From Taxawa tesnikishii (nom. ined.) (lineage: Eukaryota > Ascomycota > Dothideomycetes > Dothideales), in assembly GCA_030247885.1 (NCBI GenBank), contig JAPDRO010000007.1:503501-567500 (forward strand): a stretch of 64,000 bases of DNA. The letters are read 5' to 3'. The translations under genes were made by a program, and so were the position numbers. Below, in pieces: positions 16,303 to 64,000 of the stretch. Each line of letters starts with the position of its first letter. The first letter of the stretch is position 1. The notes beneath the pieces were generated by a model, which did no database searches, was not told where the DNA came from, and worked only from the letters and a program-made list of their open reading frames with translations.

Positions 16303-19300
16303 CTAAACCTTCCTCAAGAAGACCGGCACATCGCTCAAATCGACACCGAAGTTCTCGGCCAACACAATGCTCTTTCTCTGTGCCTTGCTTTCATTTCCTC
16401 TGGTACCCGCACTGCCCGCAAACCCGGCACCGCGCTCCCAGCCGTAATCGAGGCCGCCGCTGAAGCGGTCAAACAACGAGTCGGGCGATGGCGTCGGTGC
16501 CACGATGCGCGATTGTGAGAGAGGGCGCGAGGATTTAGGCGGAAGGGAGAAGGACGAGTTGTTGTTGGGGAGCCTGGGACTGGTAAGGGCGGTCAGAGTA
16601 AGGGCGTCGGACTGCCGGTAAGCGCGATAGCCCTGGTTCATCTCGCTGCTGCTGTTGGTGTCCTGTACATCGGCAGGGTTGCGGGCAGTGGCATTGGAAG
16701 CGTACGAAACGGCAGAGCGGAAGGTGGCCGTAGAAATCGCGCTGTCAGTGCGAGGAACGTCCGATTTCGCAGGGCGAAGATCGGTGCGATTGGATTCACA
16801 GAGGGTATAGTACGGGTCAATGTGGTCGTCTTCATCTTCCGTTTCTTCTGTGACAGGGGCAGGGGTGGTCCCGGTGGCTTCTGCTGCCTGCGCAGCGAGC
16901 TCTGCTCCAGTGGGCGTGATGTAGCGTGAGACGAAGATGGCAGGCGATTGAGGAGTGGTGACCTTTGGTGATTGCTTGTATTGAGCGACGATATGTGTGG
17001 AGGACGTAGAAAGCTTGGGCAGAGATTCACTGAGAGACTTCCTGTGCTCGCGCCAGCGACGGGCTTGAGTCTCCCAACCTGGCCATCCTGGATGCATGGA
17101 GTCGTGGGAAGGAGACTCCACAGCACCTTCAGTCATTTCACCACTTGATATCTGCGCATTTACAGACTCGCCACTGAGCTGTTGCGGGCTGGCGCGGAGT
17201 TTCATCGCCGGAGATTCCTCCGTAGGCAGAGGGTGCCTGCCTACACGTGGAGATACCGACTTGGCACGCTCCCTACGCTCTTGAGGCGCACGGCGTGGTG
17301 CCTCAGATGCAGTACGCTCACGAGAACCAGGCAGCTGCGGCAAACCTTCAGTGTAAGTGTTTCGCGAACGGCCCATTCTGGGCGTGGCAGGCGTTGGTGT
17401 TTGTGCGGGGTCCGCAGGTAATTTAGGCGTGGGAGGATGTTGCTCTGCAGCGTCGTTGCTCTTAGCATAGTATCGTGGCAAGGACTTGGAACGGCTGCGG
17501 CTGCGCGATGCCCTCCTCGAAGCCTCTTCTGTACGTCCTCTGCTCCTTGTACGGCTGTGTTCGGTGGAGGCCCGCTCGTCCATCCCCTTCGAAGGGGAGG
17601 CGTTTCTTGAAGTCCGGTCGGTGCGGCCTCGGCTTGTTGCACGGGCATGCTGGGCAGTGGCCCTCTCGATCATATCTGGGGTAACAATACTTTCTTCAGA
17701 AGGGTTGTTTAACTGTGTCGAGATCTGATGTGGGTGAGAAATTGGCCGTGCGCCCTGAGATGCAGCGACCTTAGACTGTTTTGTGGCCAAATCGTATGGA
17801 GAACCTCCAAGAGACTGCGCAACAGAACCAAGATCGGAAATCGTGGGTACTGGAGGTGCGTCTGGTCGGAACACTGAAAGGTCGGCTTGTGACACACTCT
17901 TGCTCCTGCTCTTGCTCCGCCCGCGCAACCGGAAGATGCTCCGCTTCTTCTGTAAAGGCGACGAATCATCGCTTGGCTGCTCCGGTTGAGATACCTTACT
18001 TTGACTACGACCGCGGGTTGCTTTGGCGGCTGAGGAGTCAACGCCTCCAGATGGGGAACTAAATCCGCTCTTCCGTTCTTTGGCTGATTGAGCAGTGTTT
18101 TCTTGCGAGACGTCATCGACTGAAACATAGGTCCGGTCGAGAGCAGCCATCTTAGGAGCGGTTGTGAGTCGTCGAGAGAAGTTGACAGAAACCTCAGCAG
18201 GGACATTTGGTAAAGCATTAGACCGTACGTTCGTCGCCGACTGTACTGTTAATGGAGCCCTGGTCTGCTGTCCGGAAACCGAGCGACCCTTCTGTTGGCG
18301 TTTCGCGTTCTGTCCCGGAACGTCGGTGCTGATGTCTTGAACAGGAAGGCTTTGAGTTGATCCGGTGGGGACGAAGCTCGTGGTGGAACCCTGAGGTACC
18401 GTGCCGTATACGGGCATACTGTTACGCTGCAAAGGACGTTGCTTCATCGGAAGAGGCAGGAAAGCTTCATACTCTGCGGAAGGGCTTTGAACAGACACGG
18501 TGGATGGCAGGCTCGTAGTGCTGGTCTTCTCCGGTGTAACTTCAAGAGATGCGGCTCCGACAGAGCTCCGGTCTTGCTTGATTTGAAACGATGCTTCGGA
18601 GCTGTAACCACTGTCACTCTTGGTAGGTGCGAGAATGGGACGTAGCTGCGACGGCGTAGGTCGGAGGACATGCTCGAGAGTGCTGGCGCAGGAATGGGAT
18701 CCCAGCGGAGGACAAATGTCCAAAGGCTGATCGGTTCCGTTGAGTTTTCGAAGAGCCTCTTCAGGACTGCCAACCTTTTCAACAGGCGAGATGTCAGACA
18801 TGGAGGGAACAGTGCTGAGACGGTGAACAAAATGTCCTCCAGAGATTTTCCTGTTGTATGGGCTAGGCGAAAGATCGCATTCGGACATGTAATCCTGCGC
18901 AATATCAGAAGCTCGGTGACGAGGACGTACCCTGGAGCGCTGTCGTGCATCTGCTGACTCCGACTCCGCATCGTACTCTTCGATTGAGGTCTTAATGCGA
19001 AGTGGAGCAGGAGGCTTCGGCCGGCCATCACAGGACTGGGCCCTCATTCTTGCGCTCCTTGGAGAGTTGCCTTGCCGAGCGGCCTTGCTGGTGCTAAGGA
19101 TTTTGTCTCGGACAGATAACCCTTCCAAGTGCGGGCCATCAAAGGTATCATTGCTGCTGCAATCCTCATCGGCGGTGAAGTATCCATCTGCGCTCTTTAG
19201 GTCCGGCGAAGAAGCTCGCTCGGCGATTCTCAGAATGACACTGGGGTCTGGAGAAGCTGCACCGTTAGTGATGCGTAAGGTACCCTGCTTGTATGAGCCG

Positions 19301-20157
19301 ATCTGGTAGTCCATGTCAATTGGCGTTGCGGCTCTGGCATCGTAGATGTTCTGCGACTCTTCTGCAAGATCCAGAGCGGCAAGGTTGTTCTTGTGGTCCT
19401 TGTCCGCGTTTGAACCCGACAAAGTCAAGGGCCGCTCAGATTGAGGTCTGCGAGACTTAATCGGTAGTGGCGTCCCCTTCTTCAAGTTTTCCTGGGAGGG
19501 AGCTGACCGAGTGGCGATGCCTGCCGGGAGGAGCGACTTCCGCCTGATAAGCGACGAGATAACGGATCTCTTCTCCTCCAGAACGGGCGTGCTCTGAGGA
19601 TCGAAATCAGTGTTCGGAAGCAAGGCTTTGTGCAAAGCGACGAGATCCTCTGGTGACGCCTTCTTCTTCAGCTCTTGCAATAGCGCAATAGCGGCGTTGA
19701 CATCCATGTCTGAAATATCAGTCGAGTCTCTGACGGTCGAGTTCCGTTTCACGTTCAGTGTATCAACCGTTGTTGTCGATGAGTTCTTCAGATTGGCAAC
19801 CTGTGCTAAGATAGAGCCCGATCTGGAAGGCACATCTGCGGGGTCCGTGCCAATGGTGTCTGTGGAGTATTCTTGGGCTGGAGATAGCTCCTGTGGGAAT
19901 GGCTGCGCAGATTCATACGAACGCGCAGAATGGTGCGAACTAAATGATCTTAAAAGCTCCTGAGGCTCGCCTCTTTCCTGCAGCGGGCTTTGCACATCCG
20001 CGTCATCTGTGGGACCAGGAGATGCAGCTTTGCTGGGCGAGGACGTTGGAGACGTCGTATCAGGCTTCGAACATGCATGAGGAGAATTAGTGTTGGTTCG
20101 TGGTTTTGTCAAACGGGTTTGCACCGGCGGCGCGGCGGAAGACGGAGCATTGCCCAT
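16303..20157 (-). CDS. Large disordered protein with N-myristoylation-type start
   Basis: A single uninterrupted frame encodes 1284 residues. It begins MGNAPSS, which fits the G2-x-x-x-S6 N-myristoylation pattern. Most of the protein is Ser/Pro/Arg/Glu-rich and predicted disordered, with SR-like clusters (for example RGRSKSRSKS). Conserved-looking segments are ISDMDVNAAIALLQELKKKA (about 148-167) and the C-terminus, where SKAQRKSIVLAENFGVDLSD precedes the terminal VPVFLRKV. I do not recognise a domain. The amphipathic, non-repetitive C-terminus looks like a short linear binding motif. If myristoylated, the product would sit on a membrane as a scaffold. Function is unknown. It is notable as the longest intact frame in a window where many genes show broken frames. 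Confidence 0.8.
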   Translation of the reverse strand: MGNAPSSAAPPVQTRLTKPRTNTNSPHACSKPDTTSPTSSPSKAASPGPTDDADVQSPLQERGEPQELLRSFSSHHSARSYESAQPFPQELSPAQEYSTDTIGTDPADVPSRSGSILAQVANLKNSSTTTVDTLNVKRNSTVRDSTDISDMDVNAAIALLQELKKKASPEDLVALHKALLPNTDFDPQSTPVLEEKRSVISSLIRRKSLLPAGIATRSAPSQENLKKGTPLPIKSRRPQSERPLTLSGSNADKDHKNNLAALDLAEESQNIYDARAATPIDMDYQIGSYKQGTLRITNGAASPDPSVILRIAERASSPDLKSADGYFTADEDCSSNDTFDGPHLEGLSVRDKILSTSKAARQGNSPRSARMRAQSCDGRPKPPAPLRIKTSIEEYDAESESADARQRSRVRPRHRASDIAQDYMSECDLSPSPYNRKISGGHFVHRLSTVPSMSDISPVEKVGSPEEALRKLNGTDQPLDICPPLGSHSCASTLEHVLRPTPSQLRPILAPTKSDSGYSSEASFQIKQDRSSVGAASLEVTPEKTSTTSLPSTVSVQSPSAEYEAFLPLPMKQRPLQRNSMPVYGTVPQGSTTSFVPTGSTQSLPVQDISTDVPGQNAKRQQKGRSVSGQQTRAPLTVQSATNVRSNALPNVPAEVSVNFSRRLTTAPKMAALDRTYVSVDDVSQENTAQSAKERKSGFSSPSGGVDSSAAKATRGRSQSKVSQPEQPSDDSSPLQKKRSIFRLRGRSKSRSKSVSQADLSVFRPDAPPVPTISDLGSVAQSLGGSPYDLATKQSKVAASQGARPISHPHQISTQLNNPSEESIVTPDMIERATAQHARATSRGRTDRTSRNASPSKGMDERASTEHSRTRSRGRTEEASRRASRSRSRSKSLPRYYAKSNDAAEQHPPTPKLPADPAQTPTPATPRMGRSRNTYTEGLPQLPGSRERTASEAPRRAPQERRERAKSVSPRVGRHPLPTEESPAMKLRASPQQLSGESVNAQISSGEMTEGAVESPSHDSMHPGWPGWETQARRWREHRKSLSESLPKLSTSSTHIVAQYKQSPKVTTPQSPAIFVSRYITPTGAELAAQAAEATGTTPAPVTEETEDEDDHIDPYYTLCESNRTDLRPAKSDVPRTDSAISTATFRSAVSYASNATARNPADVQDTNSSSEMNQGYRAYRQSDALTLTALTSPRLPNNNSSFSLPPKSSRPLSQSRIVAPTPSPDSLFDRFSGGLDYGWERGAGFAGSAGTRGNESKAQRKSIVLAENFGVDLSDVPVFLRKV

Positions 20158-49293: not shown

Positions 49294-49625
49294 ACGACCG
49301 AGCCCACGTACTACAGAGAACACAGCACGTCTGCCTGCTTTGCCGCCAACAAAGCACCTTGCACGCACTTCTGCCTTTCCCAGTCACTCATTCAACAAAC
49401 TTTCTACTCGAGTAAATACCGTGAGCACACTCCACGTATGATACATCTTACCCGTCCACTCCCGCTTGTCCCCCTGCAATTTTCACATGACAAAGCTTTT
49501 ATTGACACGACGCGCGTGTTGACTTATCCCTTTTCTCACAGCAACTACTGCTCTTCTTCGACACTCTTGTTGCAAACTCCTCGACACCGATATATTGAGC
49601 ACCGTTCACACCCCACTAAAGACAA

Positions 49626-50159
49626 ATGGCCAACCGCATCAATATTCCCCTCGACGCTCTCACGTCCCGTCTCAACCTGTCCGGCCGCTTCGACAACGTG
49701 CGCTCGCAGTCCATCGCCAACCGCTTCGCCAACCTGAAGCCCATCTCCGAGTTCCTTGACTTCAAGCGTCTTTCCAAACCACAGAACTTCGGCGAAGTCC
49801 AGAATAGGGTAAACTACAACCTGGCCTATTTCTCGAGCAACTATGCCGCCGTCTTTGTCATGCTCAGCGTTTACACCCTGCTGACCAACTGGCTTCTCTT
49901 CTTCGACATTGTCCTGGTCATTGGCGGCATGTTCGGTATCGGAAAGCTCCAAGGACGCGACCTTGACGTCGGTTTCTTCCGCGCAACTACCTCCCAGCTC
50001 TACACCGGACTGGCAGTCATCGCCATCCCAGTCGGCATCATCGCCAACCCCATCTCTGCCGCCCTCTGGCTCATTGGAGCTTCCGGCGTCAGCATTCTGG
50101 GTCACGCGTCGTTCATGGATAAGCCAATCGAGAATGCTTTTTCCGAGGAGGCGGTCTAG
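49626..50159 (+). CDS. YIP3: PRA1/YIP3-family prenylated Rab acceptor
   Basis: The intronless 177-residue protein is of normal length. The soluble N-terminus has LKPISEFLDFKRLSKP and the Pra1 signature FGEVQNRVNYNLAYFSSNYA. Two hydrophobic hairpins follow: AAVFVMLSVYTLLTNWLLFF with DIVLVIGGMFGIG, then LYTGLAVIAIPVGIIANPIS with AALWLIGASGVSILGHASFM. The tail is short and acidic. PRA1 proteins sit in ER/Golgi membranes and act on prenylated Rab GTPases during vesicle traffic. The stop is followed after only 78 bp by the start of the next gene in the same reading frame. Confidence 0.94.
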   Translation: MANRINIPLDALTSRLNLSGRFDNVRSQSIANRFANLKPISEFLDFKRLSKPQNFGEVQNRVNYNLAYFSSNYAAVFVMLSVYTLLTNWLLFFDIVLVIGGMFGIGKLQGRDLDVGFFRATTSQLYTGLAVIAIPVGIIANPISAALWLIGASGVSILGHASFMDKPIENAFSEEAV

Positions 50160-54430: not shown

Positions 54431-57400
54431 TTATATAACATTGCTCCCTGTATCCATCGCTGATGGTCCACTCACCAAACTCTGTCTACTCCTCCTGGGC
54501 TCATCAATCTCCATAGCCCCACTCATGACCCTGACGACCTTCTTTCCTTTGTTCGCGCTCGCGACAAGCACCTGGGCGGGACAAACCACAATCTCCTCCT
54601 CGCCCTCGCCACTGTCATCGCCCTTTTTGACGACCAGCGGGAACAGCACGATCTTGACGACCGAGTGGCTCTGCTCGAGCTCATCGTTGCTGTTGTACTC
54701 GCCGGACCGCTCGTTCATCAGCGAGGCGTTGAAGTGCACCTTGCGCACCAGGTCGCCGTTGGTGTCGTACTCGGGCTGCAGCGGGGGAGCATAATGTACT
54801 CTGCACGCTGCGTGCGCATCTCGATGGACAGGTCGACCGCAATGCGGAGCACGTTCTTGAGGGAGGCGACGATTTGCGACTCGCGATCCGAGGGCGGGGG
54901 CAGCAGCGTTGCGAGCACGCCATAGATCTCGAGCGCGACGGCTTCGGTGTCGAGGTTGCGCTGCGTCGCGAAGGCCGGTCGGCGCGAGAGCAGCGTGAGG
55001 GTGGTGGCGCGCCATTGCGCGACGGCGCGTGCGGGACCAACCTCGGACAGAATCTTTTCGAGCGCTTTGAGCTTCTGGCGTTGCTCGCGATCCATGCCGA
55101 AGAGGTAGCGCGTGAAGACGTACTCCCACACCATGGTCATGACGACCGACATGAAGACGTCTCTTCTCCGAACGCGGTCGCCTAGCAGCTTGTCCACGTC
55201 TGAACCGTCCAAGATGGCATTGTCAAGCCTTGCTTCAGTCTTTTCGTCAGCGATTTCCGACGACAGGCGGCACATCCGATTGTCGGAGTACTTGGAGAAG
55301 CGGAGGACCCATTGCTGGACATGTTGACACAACTTCTGGCAGGCGCTATCGAAATAGTCCTCGTCGCGGACGGTCAGGAAGTCGCTTGTCTTGGAGGCTT
55401 GGATCTGTGACTGCAGGGCACGGATTTGATCGGTAGCGATGCTGAGCTCTTCACGCAGCCTGCGGATCTCGGCGTTCTTGTCGGCCAAGGCCGTTGCGAT
55501 TTCCTGACGCACAATGTCTTCCATACCGCTGCTGAGGGCGCCGTGCTGCTGCCTCAGCTGCTCGAGGTCCTTGCTGGACTGCTCCCACTGTCTGTGCGCA
55601 TGGGCATGCTCTGCTTGTAGAACCGCATATCGGTTGTTGGTGTCTGCAATGAGGTTCCTGTTGGCTTCAGTGAGGTTGCCGTTGATCTCGGACAGTCTCG
55701 CAATCTCTTGCTGCAACGGCTCCAGCATGGCTCGGATCTGGTTGATCTCGGCATCCTTCTCGCGAAGTTGCAGCTCACGTGACTGGAGTGCATCCTGGAG
55801 AGCATGGCTATCGGAGTTGTGCTGGTGGTTGGCATTTTCTGCATTGTCCTTTGCTTCCTGTAGTTGACGGTTTTCGGATACGAGCTGGTCGAGACGGGCT
55901 TCCAAGTCGATTATGTGCATGCTTTGGCGCTTGCGCATGCTTGGCGGCTTTGTCGGTGAACGCGGCGAACCTTGCACATCGCCCCAACCCTCCTGTAAAC
56001 AAACAACAGCGTCAGCAAAATCACCATCATTAGATGTTGCACGTATGCATTGCTGCAGTCTAAACTTACATAAACGTTGGACATGACGGCCCGCCCGCTT
56101 TGGTAGTCGTCCTGCAACGGCGGCGTTGGCGGAGGTTCGATGGTGATTGTTGTTTGCGATGTTCGAGGAGCCGCGCTTTCGCCGAGCCTGCTAGCCGCAC
56201 GCAGGTCACCTGACAGGCTACGGTCAACGCGTCTCAGTGACCGGTTGCTGTTTGCGCTGGCAGACCGAAGCTGGTCTGGCGTTCTGAAATACGAGGCGCT
56301 GCCGGCCGATCGATTGCTCTGAACCGAAGGTGAACGTAAGTCGTATGCAGCGCGTTTTGATGTGTCCAGTCTCAGGCCACGATGCGTGCCACCAGCCTCT
56401 TGCTCTTCATCGATTGCTTGCCATGAAAGGTTCGATGAACGTTCAACTGGCGACAGAGGGGATTTAGGTCCTGCGCTGGCTTGTGCTGGCGGACTTCGGG
56501 CCTCGAAACCTGAGGGCGATGGGGCAGAGCTCATTCGTTCACGGAACGATTGCAACGGCGTTGCGGAACGCCTGGCGGCCTTTACGCCTCTGTCCGGGAA
56601 ACCGACGTCCGATACAGCGCGGCTTTTCTTGCTAGCAGGTGATTCTGTAGGTATGTAGCCTACAGTTTGCGCTGAGGGCTGATTGGCGTGGTCGCAGCAC
56701 TCTCAGGCGGAGGTGGCGCATGCTCATTGACAGGACCAAAATAATCATCAGTCGGCTCGTGACGACTGCCTTGGGCTTGAGACGTCTTCGGAATCGGAGA
56801 AGTGACATGTTCGGATCTTGGGTCTTCGATTCTGCCAACAGCAGGAGGCGATCGGAACAGGTATGAAGTTCGGTCTTTGGTTGTCGACTCTACCGGAGAA
56901 GGTGGTTCGTTGGCGTTTGCGCCCTCAGATTCGTTGACAGCTCTGGCGCTTTTCTGCACTGAACCTGCAGGGTCGGGGCTTTGCTTGGACCGGTCCCCTT
57001 CCACTGAGAGTTGCCACTCTGGATTGACCTCGATAGAAATACGAAGTGGGTCAGCGTTGCCGCCTGCAGAACGACGCTCCCTCAGCTCTCTGACGGGATT
57101 GTCGATAGCGTCGTCGTAGCCGCTATCTCGGACTGTGTTAGGATTAGGGGACGGAGCGCGTAGAATTGGCGAGTCCATCGATTGCATGCCGCTATCGCGA
57201 ATACTATCGAAAGACCATGATGATTCCGGAGCAAAAGGCATGGCCTTCGTGTGGTTGTCGGTGGGTATGGGAAGAGACTGAGAAACTTCAGAGGTGTGCA
57301 AGAAGCCCTGATGGCTCGTATCGGGTTCGCCTGCCACATTGTCGTCTTCTTGCATCTCAACTTGTACCGATGCTGGCTGTTCAATCTGCTCCAGAGGAGT

Positions 57401-60400
57401 GCTTTCCCGCGTCGAGGCTTTGGATTTCTTGCCCTTCTTCTTCTTACTAGTTTCTCCGAACTCATCCACCTCTTTTGTAGCCTGCATGGGCTCTTGCGAA
57501 GCTTGGCCAGCAGCTACGGGCTCTTGCGATTCAGGGAACGGGCTTCCGCTTGACGGCTCCTCCAGGCTCGTAACCATAGCCTGCTTCTTCTTGTTCTTCT
57601 TTCCCTTCTTCGTTGAGAGGCCTACGAAATCGTCTTCAACTGCTCGATCGGTACGGTTGTCCATGAAGATAGACTGTCCAACTCGCGCATGTGTAGGTTC
57701 TAGAGCCTCACTAGCCATATCAGTGTCCGGTGCTGGTGGATCAACCTCAGCCGCGGGAGTGTCAACCACCAGATCTGCGTCGTCTCCGCGCTTTTTCTTC
57801 CCTTTCTTGCCTTTCTTTTTCGTAGGCAGTGCCCATTCGTCTTCCACCCCAGCCTCTGGTTGTAGTGGCGGCTGCTTCTCGTCGTCATGCCGGACTTCTG
57901 GCAAAAGCTCTGTGGGCTGTGTGAAAGGCATCTCACGCTCCGCTTCCTGTGGGATAATGGCAGCTGATGGAGTATCTGTCAAGCCATCTGCGGTGGCCTG
58001 CGGCAATCTCTGCTCAGGAGGGTAGTTGGTGGCAGCCTCCGCTTCTTCAAGGTGAGTTACTGGTGCAAGACTGGAAGCATCATTGGTAGATGACATTGAC
58101 ACCTGAGCGGCTCCTGCGGTGTCATAGGAGGTGTCCCACGATGTGTCGGGCTCAAGAGCAGGCTGTGATTCCTCTACCGGAGGGCTGAGCGGCAGTGATT
58201 TCTTTCCTTTCTTGCCCTTCTTCTTTCTTGACTGAGCGAAGGAGAATTCTTCAGGCTCGTCGGCTGCTGCGGCCTGCCCCAATGCAGGGTTTTGAAGAAG
58301 TGCGCCTGCAAAACCAGAAGCAGCTAAGCCGGCACTCAGGGCGGCGGAAAAGTCATCCTCTTTCGTCGGTTGCTCGGAAAAGGGGCATCTTCAGCAGGGA
58401 CGCTCTTTTCTTCCGGGACGTGAATGACAGTCTCTTCGACTGGCGTTTCTGCTGCCTGGTTCTTCTTGCCCTTCTTGCCCTTCTTTCCTTTCTTGGTTGT
58501 GGTAGTCGAGAACACTTCATCTGGATCAGCTTCAGCGACGAGGCCGGGCGGAGATGCACGTCGGTGGAATATCGGGTCGTTCACTACGAGATCTGGGTCA
58601 AAGCCGGAGTCTGCCAGACCTGCAGCAAGGGTCGCGGCAAAGTCGATGTCCTGACCAGAACGTTCGTGTGTCTGAAGACTTCCTGAGATATCCTCTGTAG
58701 TGGACGGTTGAGCCTCGTCAGATGCTTCCAGTGGTTGTCGAGATTGCTCGGGCGACAGAGCGACCTCGCCAGCCTTCTCCTCAGTTGGGATGATCTGCTC
58801 TTGTTCCAGCCGCTGAAGCGATGCATCGGCTCCGTCCGCTTCCTGTTGTGGGACTGGTTCTGCCTTGCTGTACGAACCGTCTTCCTCAAGGTGTGATTCG
58901 TGGACCAGCTGCGGCTCTTGAGCCGGCGCTTCGTATGCCTCAGGGCTTGCGTGTTTGACCGGCTGTTCTGCATTACCGGTAGTGACGATGACGTCTCTGG
59001 GGTTGATGCTCCCCTCTCCCAAGGGTTGTCCGACTTGCTGATTGGCATCCGGCCGAGAAACAGATAGGTTCGAGGCGCCTGCGGGTATTCCTTGCTGACC
59101 GTCAGCAGGTGCAGGACTCTCAGGTTCATCCCATGATAGTGCGCTTTTCTTAGCCTTCTTTTTGTCCTTCTTGCTCTTCTTACCCTTTGACACCAGGGCA
59201 AAAGTATCTTCATGGTCTGGAGTCTCCACAGTTTCGAGCGCAATGGGACCCTCGAGTTGCTCAGCAGAAGGTTGCTTGTGTTCTTCCACTGGGTCTTGGA
59301 GAACAACGGGATCGCTCCCTCCCGACGGCTGTTGCACGCTGCTGTCAAACTCTGCCGAAGCCTCAACGGCTGAGGACTCCGTTGGTTCTTCGATATCAAC
59401 GAAGGTAGCTTTCGCCTTCTTGGACTTCTTCTTGTCGTTCCTGGACGGTTTGACCGGAGCCTCCTCAGTCAGTTCTGCTTCCGTAATCGTTGATGGCTGT
59501 ACTGGAATGTCTTCGCTTATAGGATCGGTAGCGGCAGCCGGTTCTTCCACCACTTGTTGCTGGAGGGGATCAACCGCTTCTTGGGTGGCAAACTCAGGTG
59601 TAGCTTCCTGCGGTTCTTCAGGCAGAACTTCTTCCCAAGCTTTGGCTTTCTTGGCTCTTTTCTTGTCCTTCTTTGCTGATTTGGAAGGAAAAACTGCTGC
59701 CTCTTCGGGATCGACGTCAGCAGGATTTTCCAACTGTGGAGTTTCGGAAACAGCAGCCTCCGCATCCATCTGCATCTGCATAGACTCCGCCGGATCTTGA
59801 GTCAACGGCTCCGCGATCTCCTTGCTCTCGCTCTCGCCCATTCCAGCCGGTTCCTCCCAGCCAACGCCCTTGACCTTCTTATCCTTCTTCTTATCTTTCT
59901 TTGACTTCTTTAATGGCGCTGCCCATGCTTCCTCCACAGTCCCAGCATCTTCGGTTGAGGGTAGAACATCTCCCGCAGGCTGCTCGGCAGACTGAGTCGC
60001 CTCTAGGGCTGGATGGGATTGCACTGTCTCGATTGAGGTTGGCTCGACCGTCATGTTCTCTTCTTGTGCCACAGGCTCTGCCTTGCCTTTTTCCCTCTCT
60101 TCTTCTTTGACTGTTTTGACGGCAGCGCCCATTCATCCTCGCCAGCTGCAGTTGTAGGCAAAGTGGTGCCCCCAACAACGGACGGTTCCCCGACTGATTG
60201 TTCTTGGTGCAGGGGCTCAGCTAATGGCTCGAGGGCTGGTTCTGTGGGCATCGGCTCAGGTATCTGAACGATTCCTCTTTCCGGCTCCGCAGGCATTGCA
60301 ACCGTCTTGCCCTTCTTAGCTTTCTTCTTATCCTTCTTCGAAGCCTTCGCAGGTACAGCCCACTCATCTTCGGCCTCTGTGACTGGGGGATCGTCGGTGG

Positions 60401-63400
60401 TGAAAGGATCCTTCAGGGGCTGCTCCTGCGGGATAGCAGTCTCGAACGGAGTCTCTGGTAAGGCAGCTTCAAGCGCGTCCTGAGGGACGGCACGGACTTC
60501 AGCCTCAGGATCTCCCGAGAGGGCTGGTACTACTGGAGGCAAAGACGTCTCATCAAGTTGCTTGCCCTGGCTGGGCCCGAGTGGGGTCTCCGGCACAGGA
60601 ATGTGGATTGTATCTTCGGGGAAGCTAGGGACTTCGACTAATTCGGCCGGCGGTAAAGGCGCCTCCTCCAATTGCTTATCTTCCTTGGGCTCTAATGGAG
60701 TTTCTGGCAAGGGTGTCTTCACTGCATCTTCAGGAACGGTAGCGATATCAGCGGTTTGCAGCTCCTCGTCAACCTGATCCTCTGGGGCTGAAAAGGATGG
60801 CTCTGGTACCATAGCCTCTGGTTGAGCTTCCTCCGAAGGCGTTTCTGGCAAAGGCGCTCGAAGTGCGTCTTGTGTAGTCGTCTGAGCATTGAAAACATCT
60901 TGACAGTCTCTAGATGCTTGCATAGGAGGTAAAGGTGGAGCTTCTAACACTGGCTCTTCAATGATGACACGTGGTCCAACCACATTGCCTTTCTTTCCTT
61001 TCTTCTTGTCCTTCTTTGACCTTTTCGAGGGCAGCGCCCACTCATCAGGCTCAGGGGCGGCAGCAGCATCGCCGCTTGTGTCTTCAACCATGGGCGCCAG
61101 CTTGGCAGTGGGTTCTTCATAGGAAACCTCGAGCTGCGGATTGGAATCATGTCCTTCCGCCGGCTCGCTAATTTCCGGTCTGTCTTCGGGCCCATCAGTC
61201 CATGCTGCTGTTGCTTTCCTTTCTTCGCCTTCTTTTTGTCCTTTTTGGATTGCTTAGAAGGTGCTGCCCACTCGTCCTCGGCGATTACGGCGGAAGTCGC
61301 TTCTTGCAGCTCCTCTGAGGCTGCCGGCTCAGCAGTCTTTTCTTCCGACGGCAGTTGGACGACTTCCTCGACAGGAGTCCCAGCCACAAGCTCTTCCGGG
61401 AGATCAACAGCTCGGGAACTCTCTTCAACTGGAGCCGACGAGCCCGAAGCCTTTGCTTTCTTTCCCTTCTTGCCTTTCTTTGACGCCTTCGCAGGTAGAG
61501 CCCATTCATCAATATCCTGGACGGGCTCGACAGAAACTTGGAGATCCTCTTGGGCAGGAACGTCCTCATTCACTTGGTTTGGAGGAGGATCCTCACTCAC
61601 GCTCTCCGCCAATTGGAATGGCTCTTCGAAAGGTTCGACGGTGTCCTTCTTAGCCTTCTTCTTGTCCTTCTTAGATTGCTTCAGGGAGAAACTGTCCGGT
61701 TCTTCCTGGTCGGCAACGACAACTTGGTCCTGTTCTGGGCCAGCATCGTCCTCCATAGCACCCGCTACATTCATGTCTTCCTGCGGCATCTTGTGAGCTT
61801 CTTTAATGACCTCATCCATCACACCGGCGACCGTAGGCATGCGAAGGTGAAGGGTGCCCATTGTCGGTTGGTCTTCACGCCCATCCATGGCTGATACGGG
61901 TGCAGTGCTGTCTGCTGTTCGATCATGCACTTCCATTAATGTCTGTTCCGCACCTGGGTCTGCAACTGTTAATGATTCCTGGTAGGTCATCGGCTGTACT
62001 TGGAAATGATGATCCGATGGAGGGACGACGGGTTTTTCAAGAACCGCAGACTCGGAAACTGCCTGATTGTCTCCAGCCATTTGTTCTGGAAGGGGCGAAC
62101 GGCTCACTGGAGTAGGAGTTGGCGACCGGTCGCGGAGTATCGTAGAATCCGTGGTAGACGTGGACTGATCGAGTACCGGCTCTGCCACCCATTCAGACGG
62201 TTGTTCTTCAAAGGGCGTGGCAAATACTTCGGCTTCCCTCTCTGCAAAAGGGGTCTCGAAGGGAGTTGTATCCTTAAATGGTGTGGTGCGTTCGACCATA
62301 GGAGTCGCAAAGATGTCCTCACCAATATCTTCCACTATAGCTTGGGGCGATAAAGGGTCCTGGACCTTTGATTCCGTAACGTCGACAACTTCGGGATCAA
62401 CAGAAGAGGTTACCGCTGCTGGAGGTGCTGCACCTGTAGCGTTGGTATGGGCGATACTATCTTCATTGGGAGCTGCTGGCTGGCTTGGCTTTGTCTCTCC
62501 GGTTGCAGGAGTTGGTTCTTCTTTGATGGGTGCTGCAGCTGTTGGCTCAACCAGAATGTGCTTCGTGACATCGGCGGACTCAGGAGGCGCAGATACATCA
62601 TCGGGTTGTACCTCCGTTGCTTCCTCCTCACGATTGCTCTTTCTGCCTTTCTTGCCCTTTTTGTCTTGACTGGTGCATCCCAAAGATCATCCGGATCCTG
62701 CTCAGGTACAAGAGCAGCTTCTGCTGGCGATGCTGTTGGGGCGGTTTCTGTCGATTCTGGCTCAAAACTCTTCTCGTCAACAGGTGTGGCAACAGGCGTC
62801 TCTTCTTGGACAGCTCGCTTGTTCTTCTTGCCCTTCTTGCCCTTCTTAGTGCTAGTTGGAGCCCAGTCCACCACTTCTTGGTCTGCAGCGATTGATTCGG
62901 CATTCAGTGATTCCGCCGCAGATGGAAGCTCCTGTTCCGTAGGTACGTCCTCTAATGGTGGAGCTTGGCTTGCTTCCTGTACAAATTCATCGGCCGGGAC
63001 AGGTTGTTTGTTCCTTTTCCCCTTCCTGCCTTTCTTGCCGGTTGGGGCAGCCCAAATATCTTCCGCAGTGACATTCTCGGTTACCGGCTCAGTTGCTGTG
63101 GGTACGGCAAGAACATCAACTGCCTTCTCGAGCTCAGCGGTAGATTCGGGATGCTCAGGCTGCACAATCGTCTCCAGCAGCTCCACCTTATCGCTTCCCT
63201 CCGTAAAACTAACTGCAGGCTCCTCGGTAACGAGCGTGGAAATGCCGGATCCTTTCTTCCCTTTCTTGCCCTTCTTCGCTTTTTTGCCGGAAGATCGAGC
63301 CCAAAGATCGTCGGTAGATTCTAGAGCAGGTGTTTCAGGAAGTGGAACGGACCTCGCTCCTTCCTCCTCGAAAGGAGTTGTACTCTCCACATATTGGGGC

Positions 63401-64000
63401 TCTATGGAGGCCTCGGCATCTCTCTCAACAGAGAGCGAGTCGGCCGAGGGTTGATCTTCAGAAGGACCTGACTCTGGGATAGGCTCGAAGTAGGTACTGG
63501 ACTGCCTGCTTTTTTGCCCTTTTTCCCTTCTTACCCTGCGATAGCGCCCACATATCCTCAACAGTTTCCGAAGCCGGGGTTGCTGGAAGTGGTACACTCG
63601 CTGGCTCGACTCCGTCCTCACGGACCGCCATCTGTTCTGCACCAAGGTTTGTTGGAGTGTCTGCGTTGTCGATGAGTAAGTCTTGATCGTTGAGTGGTGT
63701 GGCTTCAAGAACAGTCGTTCCAACAGCAGATTCGGATGATTGCTTGCCCTTTGTGCCCTTCTTGCTTTTTTATCTTTCGTGCTGGTCGGCTGCGTCCAAA
63801 TGTCTTCCGTTGACTCTGAAGATGCGGGCTCGTATGATGTGGCGTCGTCTGCGGCCCGTACTTCTTCTTGCTCATGAACTCCCACCGATGGCTTCACTGC
63901 AGACTCAAGCTCGTTGGTTGGTACATGCACATCTGCGTTGGGCTCCGTCAAAGGTCCGGAAGCTTCAGGTGCTTGACTCTCGGGCAACGGTGCGACTGCT
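54431..64000 (-). CDS. Giant Lys-rich repeat protein ('involucrin repeat'/Leashin-like), 3' part
   Basis: The minus-strand gene enters from beyond the right edge, so the N-terminus is missing; over 3,100 codons lie here. From 64000 to about 57400 there are some 21 spaced units of the form (D/E)-W-A-x-P-x-K-x-x-K-K-x-K-K-x-K-K separated by acidic, Pro/Glu/Val-rich linkers. Two copies of DFxAxLxAGLAxSGF lie near 58.6 and 58.3 kb. A Ser-rich region follows, then a 77-nt intron (55993-56069), a long coiled coil (55.9-55.4 kb) and a folded C-terminal domain (FSKYSDNRMCRLSSEIADEK, RDVFMSVVMTMVWEYVFTRY). This matches giant fungal proteins annotated as involucrin repeat proteins. Leashin (Lah), the Woronin body-to-septum/cortex tether, has the same broad layout; orthology is inferred. 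Nine single-base breaks, all of missing-base polarity, include those near 62.66, 61.2, 60.12, 58.36, 56.66 and 54.79 kb. Confidence 0.8.
57410..63790 (-). repeat. About 21 dispersed Trp/Lys-rich protein repeat units
   Basis: On the plus strand each unit appears as a block of CTTCTT/CCTTTC (reverse-complemented Lys codons). Approximate block positions in kb are 63.77, 63.52, 63.28, 63.03, 62.84, 62.66, 61.66, 61.48, 61.25, 61.02, 60.34, 60.12, 59.90, 59.67, 59.42, 59.16, 58.49, 58.22, 57.81, 57.61 and 57.44. The spacing is irregular, about 170 to 1000 bp. Two sub-types are visible: SKKDKKKAKKGK (mostly 59-61.7 kb) and TKKGKKGKKxK (both flanks). Confidence 0.9.
60430..60890 (-). repeat. LPETP protein repeat, four copies
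   Basis: Four copies of a segment with consensus (P/E)DAxxxxLPETPxE followed by KQLxExxLPP occur at about 60.46, 60.60, 60.71 and 60.86 kb, 110-145 bp apart. More distant relatives (VPLPETPALE at 63.34 kb and VPLPATPASE at 63.59 kb) sit just ahead of Trp/Lys units. Confidence 0.82.

Follow-up and report, generated by a model that had tools for sequence, protein, structure and literature searches.

A predicted leashin gene in the soil-crust black yeast Taxawa tesnikishii, its recurring lysine units and the disputed topology of its C-terminal domain

In mould hyphae, leashin ties Woronin bodies, the organelles that plug wounds, to the pores between cells. We analyzed a window of 64,000 nucleotides (nt) from Taxawa tesnikishii (G000:C32:503501-567500), a soil-crust black yeast (Dothideomycetes, Dothideales) with a genome assembly of 29.37 Mb, at one end of which lies the 3' part of a predicted leashin (lah) gene (Table 1). 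Strain JES_119 is described as coming from desert soil crust and growing as meristematic and budding cells, and its assembly as a 29.38 Mb hybrid of Nanopore and Illumina data (PMC11195213). The gene itself is of a known kind, a further member of its family found in a new species; what is newly added is a pattern of lysine (Lys) units in its middle and doubt about the published claim of a transmembrane segment.

Positions past the window edge are given as window coordinates carried on ("ext", with ext 77403 corresponding to C32:580903), and the 5' flank of lah was taken from loci L002-L004. The original prediction, made from the window's letters alone, described one giant coding unit still open at the edge. 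Coding does continue, to an ATG at ext 77403 (G000:C32:580903), 13.4 kb beyond the edge, for a total of about 23 kb, of which 9.6 kb lie inside the window. The unit appears to be a single colinear gene but is not a single open frame, as the window contains eight frame breaks and one intron. When five long relatives (5506 to 6954 residues) were compared with the extended gene by tblastn, all matched in the same order on one strand. P0126 and P0128 aligned from residues 24 and 35 through their last residues, with gaps in the mid-region, and both ends of lah were colinear on a single strand. The joined whole-gene model has 7699 residues, including about 39 upstream of the ATG and some intron residues, and a net charge of -403; the predicted Lah protein has about 7.6 thousand residues. 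The public model P0001 (H2203_003971, 502 residues) covers just the last part and is a fragment of lah. It starts MSN-EGWGD, which implies a splice near the intron in Table 1, with another nearby donor. No longer lah model of T. tesnikishii was among the matches listed in the searches for relatives. Users should be warned that the public annotation cuts up this leashin gene.

Table 1. Features of lah and the HEX1 gene. Positions are those of the window unless a contig or locus is named.
Feature	Position	Strand	Basis
lah (leashin) gene, 3' 42%	54431..64000	(-)	Open reading frames, 5' flank, colinear tblastn of five long relatives (ext 77340-54434)
Array of 21 Lys-run units (acidic patch, usually Trp/Phe, Ser/Thr, KKxKKxKK) with acidic linkers	57412..63780	(-)	Unit scan, spacing and charge
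Conserved island with first motif, AGLADSGF (58600-58623)	58495..58632	(-)	46-residue island within variable region
Second motif, AGLAASGF	58310..58333	(-)	Frame translation
Intron, GTAAGT...CTGAC...TTTACAG, 77 bp	55993..56069	(-)	Sequence and positions
Predicted coiled coil, one helix of 135 residues	55396..55800	(-)	AlphaFold2 of P0002, residues 47-181
LahC domain, predicted helices and C-terminal beta strands	54551..55371	(-)	AlphaFold2, primer match
Helix published as transmembrane segment (RVRRRDVFMSVVMTMVWEYVF)	55114..55176	(-)	Residues of published V-V to E-E mutant
Frame break in C5 run	54784..54792	(-)	P0002, 99% identical, other contig, single frame here
HEX1 gene	G000:C34, L006 1477-2136	(-)	Match to 8qlw, ends SRL

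Two checks set beforehand, one at each end of the protein, bear on the leashin-type identity that had been predicted, and both came out in its favor. At the C-terminus, seven Aspergillus fumigatus lah primers (PMC5345055, Table 1 of that paper) were translated. Six of these encode EGWGESP, FSKHSDH, MDREQRQ, EQRQKLK, IFMS(EE)MTMV (VV changed to EE), and STMDISNVI-stop, and the window holds counterparts at the corresponding places: EGWGDV, FSKYSDN, MDREQRQ, EQRQKLK, VFMSVVMTMV, and SAMDTGSNVI-stop. Two of the six sites overlap each other. The seventh primer, further upstream (AIAEFDE), was unmatched in the window with a loose pattern. Residues were counted on P0002, a copy on a different contig with 99% identity, which was also used for structure prediction. 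The start sites of LahC288 and LahC219 lie 289 and 221 residues from its end, compared to 288 and 219 residues for the A. fumigatus fragments. The C-terminal 288 residues of T. tesnikishii and A. fumigatus Lah agree in order and length at the six sites. The C-terminal domain, which had looked conserved from the window alone, is indeed conserved, with 960 relatives of similar length at E<=1e-3 for a 490-residue piece (120 listed). Long relatives numbered 504 at the same threshold (120 listed), the best among the matches listed being 75% identical over 397 residues. At the N-terminus, residues 24-444 and 454-842 of P0126 (5944 residues) matched the extended lah colinearly with the C-terminus, with identities of 45% and 53% and an E value of about 1e-80 for each segment; this comparison was made through relatives, not through the A. 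fumigatus or Neurospora (LAH-1 1-344) sequences themselves.

On these sequence comparisons, we regard the gene as the T. tesnikishii leashin ortholog with very little doubt. Leashin has been reported to bind WSC and to act in tethering (PMC2690989), and Lah very probably acts as a Woronin body tether here as well. The same genome encodes HEX1, the core protein of Woronin bodies, with a C-terminal SRL and an E value of 5e-98 to 8qlw, a solved Woronin body major protein. A run of six His residues was also seen near the N-terminus of HEX1. Lah could instead serve chiefly as a polarity and septal scaffold, like Neurospora LAH-2, whose clients at the hyphal tip are COT-1 and GPI-1; the C-terminus of LAH-2 is equivalent, and LAH-2 is reported to work at the Spitzenkorper and the pore (PMC7275032; PMC2690989). 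A chiefly scaffolding role in place of tethering is improbable, however, given that the N-terminal half and the C-terminus lie in one colinear gene, as in the relatives, and that HEX1 is present. Lah may fill scaffold and tether roles at once.

Like the leashin of Neurospora crassa, Lah has predicted coiled coils, and between its conserved ends lies a middle that is acidic, repetitive, and poorly conserved. LAH-1 and LAH-2 are two transcription units in that fungus, whereas the sequence here points to one colinear gene, an unsplit gene being the ancestral form. Like A. fumigatus Lah (AFUA_2G08060), the T. tesnikishii protein is predicted to be a single long chain in which a coiled coil precedes the C-terminal region, but it is longer, at about 7.6 thousand residues compared to about 5.5 thousand, a length derived from the residue numbers published for A. 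fumigatus.

The UniRef name of many listed relatives is 'Involucrin repeat protein'. Animal involucrin has Gln-rich decapeptide repeats. Membership in that family was considered and rejected, as Gln makes up just 4.7% of the joined model and no Pfam family scored above cut-off in the ten pieces of lah searched; the name is a label only. The A. fumigatus protein with this name, AFUA_2G08060, has been described as a Woronin body tether (PMC8227032). Other leashins carry misleading names, including futsch-like, reticulocyte-binding protein 2, Titin, and murein-binding lipoprotein Lpp (P0138, P0150, P0209, and P0085). Fungal leashins are also filed under Persea americana (avocado) and Quercus suber (cork oak; P0032, P0142, and P0150), probably through fungal contamination of plant assemblies.

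Single-base frame breaks interrupt lah in the window near 63763, 63492, 62665, 61232, 60132, 58375, 56693, and 54790. Along the whole gene, the three-frame path needed 19 single-base steps, 14 of which were counted as breaks and five excluded (introns, unresolved, or before the start). Four of the eight window breaks are located at A5-A6 runs inside Lys units, as might be expected of a decaying gene or of programmed frameshifting in lysine runs. However, a homopolymer of at least four lies within 20 nt of 13 of the 14 breaks, compared to 27% of random places, one missing base is the apparent cause at 13 of the 14, and C runs are affected too. At the break in the C5 run, where P0001 omits 21 conserved residues, the 99% identical P0002 is intact. 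The adjacent MutS-family gene (domains I-V; L004 663-3469 (+), ext 80663-83469), for which "MSH3-like" is our own label, is also frame-split, although introns are possible there. Further, BUSCO completeness is given as 97.4% for Illumina and 92.9% for Nanopore (PMC11195213). Based on the homopolymers, the missing bases, the intact P0002, the split neighbor, and the drop in BUSCO completeness, the breaks are most likely assembly errors, and a biological origin is very hard to credit.

The C-terminal part of lah was examined with AlphaFold2. The coiled coil that the original prediction had proposed was modeled as a single helix, while Pfam coiled-coil matches to lah were all below cut-off; in A. 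fumigatus Lah, a coiled coil is published at the same place (PMC5345055). Downstream lies the LahC domain, which overlaps the 288-residue region published as targeting the septal pore, except for the tail of that region; the A. fumigatus C-terminal region is reported to target the pore rim (PMC5345055). On P0002, block means were 93-98 for residues 191-460, and the predicted template modeling score (pTM) for the whole 502 residues, coil and tails included, was 0.64.

Leonhardt et al. concluded from their A. fumigatus experiments that Lah is a membrane-crossing protein (PMC5345055). In that topology, the helix marked in Table 1 spans the plasma membrane, and the last 219 residues lie outside, in the space of the septal wall. 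Our reading, to which we give a probability of roughly 0.58, is that Lah is instead not transmembrane. LahC would be a compact soluble domain, made of a helical bundle and beta strands, that grips the pore rim from the cytosol; it would belong to a broader group of fungal coiled-coil proteins, and the 'transmembrane' helix would be a buried core helix. When the window's own 199 residues spanning both sides of the disputed helix were modeled, AlphaFold2, in which membranes are unmodeled, packed helices from both sides into one confident unit (pTM 0.86), with the disputed helix as one of eight. The best 19-residue hydropathy of this helix reached at least 1.6 in only 1 of 111 aligned relatives (mean 1.21). 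Inside it, position 272 is Glu in 97% of the 111 rows and position 277 is Arg in all, and invariant basic residues flank it on both sides (R255, R258, and R259 before; R284, R287, and K291 after). The supposed outer part holds a single Cys in P0002. A paralogue of the second half of LahC in the same genome, at C8:556367-556768 downstream of a coiled-coil-like frame (phmmer E 2.6e-4 and 1.1e-6; hhalign 96.6%, E 4.8e-10), is less hydrophobic at the disputed helix (0.83 compared to 1.18), but this stretch aligns weakly (E 0.38).

Several observations weigh against a soluble LahC. The pellet and perinuclear results are published for A. fumigatus (PMC5345055), an N-x-S/T site occurs in 68 of the 111 rows, the helical moment of the disputed helix is near zero, and the structural neighbors include membrane proteins, albeit with scores too low to mean anything. 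Because AlphaFold2 lacks membranes and neither coordinates nor pair errors stand behind it, burial of the helix is an inference. On the other hand, the three published results would also be expected if the core helix of a soluble domain had been cut out, exposed, or mutated. Together with the low hydropathy and the conserved charges, this makes a true transmembrane anchor the less probable of the two topologies, though one to be taken seriously. Should LahC prove soluble, its septal-pore receptor would have to be sought at the cytosolic rim instead of outside the membrane, and the three mutant results in print would need rereading.

The paralogue lies within a second protein with coiled-coil-like and LahC-like parts (L014 630-1923 (+), G000:C8:555496-556789), and weaker LahC-like matches were found on C7 (L024) and at C32:141228 (L018). 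LahC-like proteins may mark a wider fungal domain family.

Upstream of these conserved parts, the long middle of lah is repetitive and of low complexity, with charge blocks that alternate. A paired AGLAxSGF motif noticed in the window is present at both places (Table 1), and AGLxx[S/T]GF occurs in 101 of the 120 listed long relatives. The predicted "about 21" units rich in tryptophan (Trp) and Lys were also recovered. A three-frame scan of 54431-64000 (-), with frames unjoined, found 20 Lys-run units, and a 21st at 63777 spans a frame break, so the earlier count holds. The ten residues before the lysines contain Trp in 11 of the 20 units, Phe in 7, and neither in 2, one of which (at 62662) spans a frame break. 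The joined whole-gene model contains 43 Lys units, whereas 200 residue shuffles averaged 0.7 and never exceeded 4; 18 of the 43 have Trp within 14 residues upstream, compared to a shuffle mean of 0.05 (maximum 1; 200 shuffles).

To extend this analysis, we used 54 proteins: Lah and 53 non-redundant long relatives, chosen from the 120 listed at 88% identity over the last 420 residues. Lys units numbered 10-51 per protein (median 26), while shuffles of 30 tallied proteins gave means of 0 to 2.5. Across 1436 units, D/E was enriched at -10 to -7 from the Lys runs (peak 48% at -8), W/F at -7 to -5 (at -6, Trp 15% and Phe 11%, compared to backgrounds of 0.6% and 2.1%), and Ser/Thr at -2 and -1 (43% and 53%, background 17%). 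At least one of the two residues preceding the run was S/T in 1054 of 1437 units, compared to 0.30 at random places. Gaps between units measured 40-100 residues in 52% of 1383 cases, compared to 24% with random placing. The acidic linkers proposed earlier are present as well: in 1116 gaps of 30-200 residues, charge per residue was -0.19 in the linkers and +0.50 in the Lys runs. Sequence conservation per 200 residues among 24 relatives was 0.11-0.32 over model residues 3201-6800, compared to 0.66-0.82 at the end. Since the units recur in 54 proteins despite this low conservation, it is the Lys-unit pattern, as judged from these alignments and counts, and not the sequence that is kept in the middle. 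A unit with recurring spacing and charge pattern in a drifting sequence provides a concrete, testable basis for an elastic tether, which is known from recoil experiments (PMC2690989).

We propose tentatively, at a little below even odds, that the middle works as a spring built from a blocky polyampholyte. Its roughly 43 short units, with a net charge of +0.5 per residue, alternate with acidic linkers at -0.19 per residue, and this alternation would let the units stick weakly to linkers of the same or neighboring tethers. Many tethers could then bundle into an elastic cable with recoil, Trp/Phe would add stickiness to the Lys units, and Ser/Thr before the lysine runs would give kinases a means to loosen the cable. 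Ng et al. 2009 describe the leashin middle as acidic and PELS-rich, cite recoil in their Discussion, and draw an analogy to titin (PMC2690989), a parallel that Steinberg et al. 2017 regard as speculative (PMC5745230). The PEVK region of titin is likewise a long, disordered, elastic filament rich in Pro/Glu/Val/Lys with a mixture of charges, a parallel by analogy only.

Three points weigh against giving the Lys units this importance. The repeats described for Neurospora leashin, LPVDEDLDLLPALPES and PEEVELPASP, are acidic and contain no lysine runs (PMC2690989). Units are few (10-14 each) in 5 of the 30 tallied proteins, T. tesnikishii included in the tally, which indicates that a large unit number is not essential. 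The merging of neighboring runs, which empties the 0-20 bin by construction, accounts for part of the gap statistic.

The units might instead bind a specific acidic partner such as membrane, tubulin, or actin. The original prediction considered contacts with acidic partners, which are possible from the sequence. The recurring arrangement of acidic patch, aromatic residue, Ser/Thr, and lysines would suit such binding, and Lys-rich repeats that target the cell periphery are reported elsewhere (PMC5207086). The protein's own acidic linkers are always at hand as a partner, however, and we consider a dedicated external partner doubtful.

The effector domain of MARCKS brings together lysines, aromatics, and phosphorylatable Ser. 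The lah units appear to combine the same features, but MARCKS has one copy and lah has dozens, and membrane binding in the manner of MARCKS is an analogy only. Without the kinase YakA, Lah phosphorylation is reported to be altered and LahC lost from the septum (PMC11166925), and adenosine triphosphate (ATP) is reported to keep pores open (PMC5656841). Given these reports, a phosphorylation switch on the Lys units is worth testing. More specifically, the [acidic]-[W/F]-xx-[S/T]-lysine units could act in series as an electrostatic switch that phosphorylation loosens, with ATP and kinases thereby gating Woronin body entry into the pore; we consider this unlikely, and less likely than a soluble LahC.

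Two other features in the window were noted. A 1284-residue open frame at 16303-20157 (-) had no Pfam match at E<=1e-5. Near the 3' end of leashin, a PRA1 family gene at 49620-50159 (+) occupies a single frame and covers nearly the whole Pfam profile.
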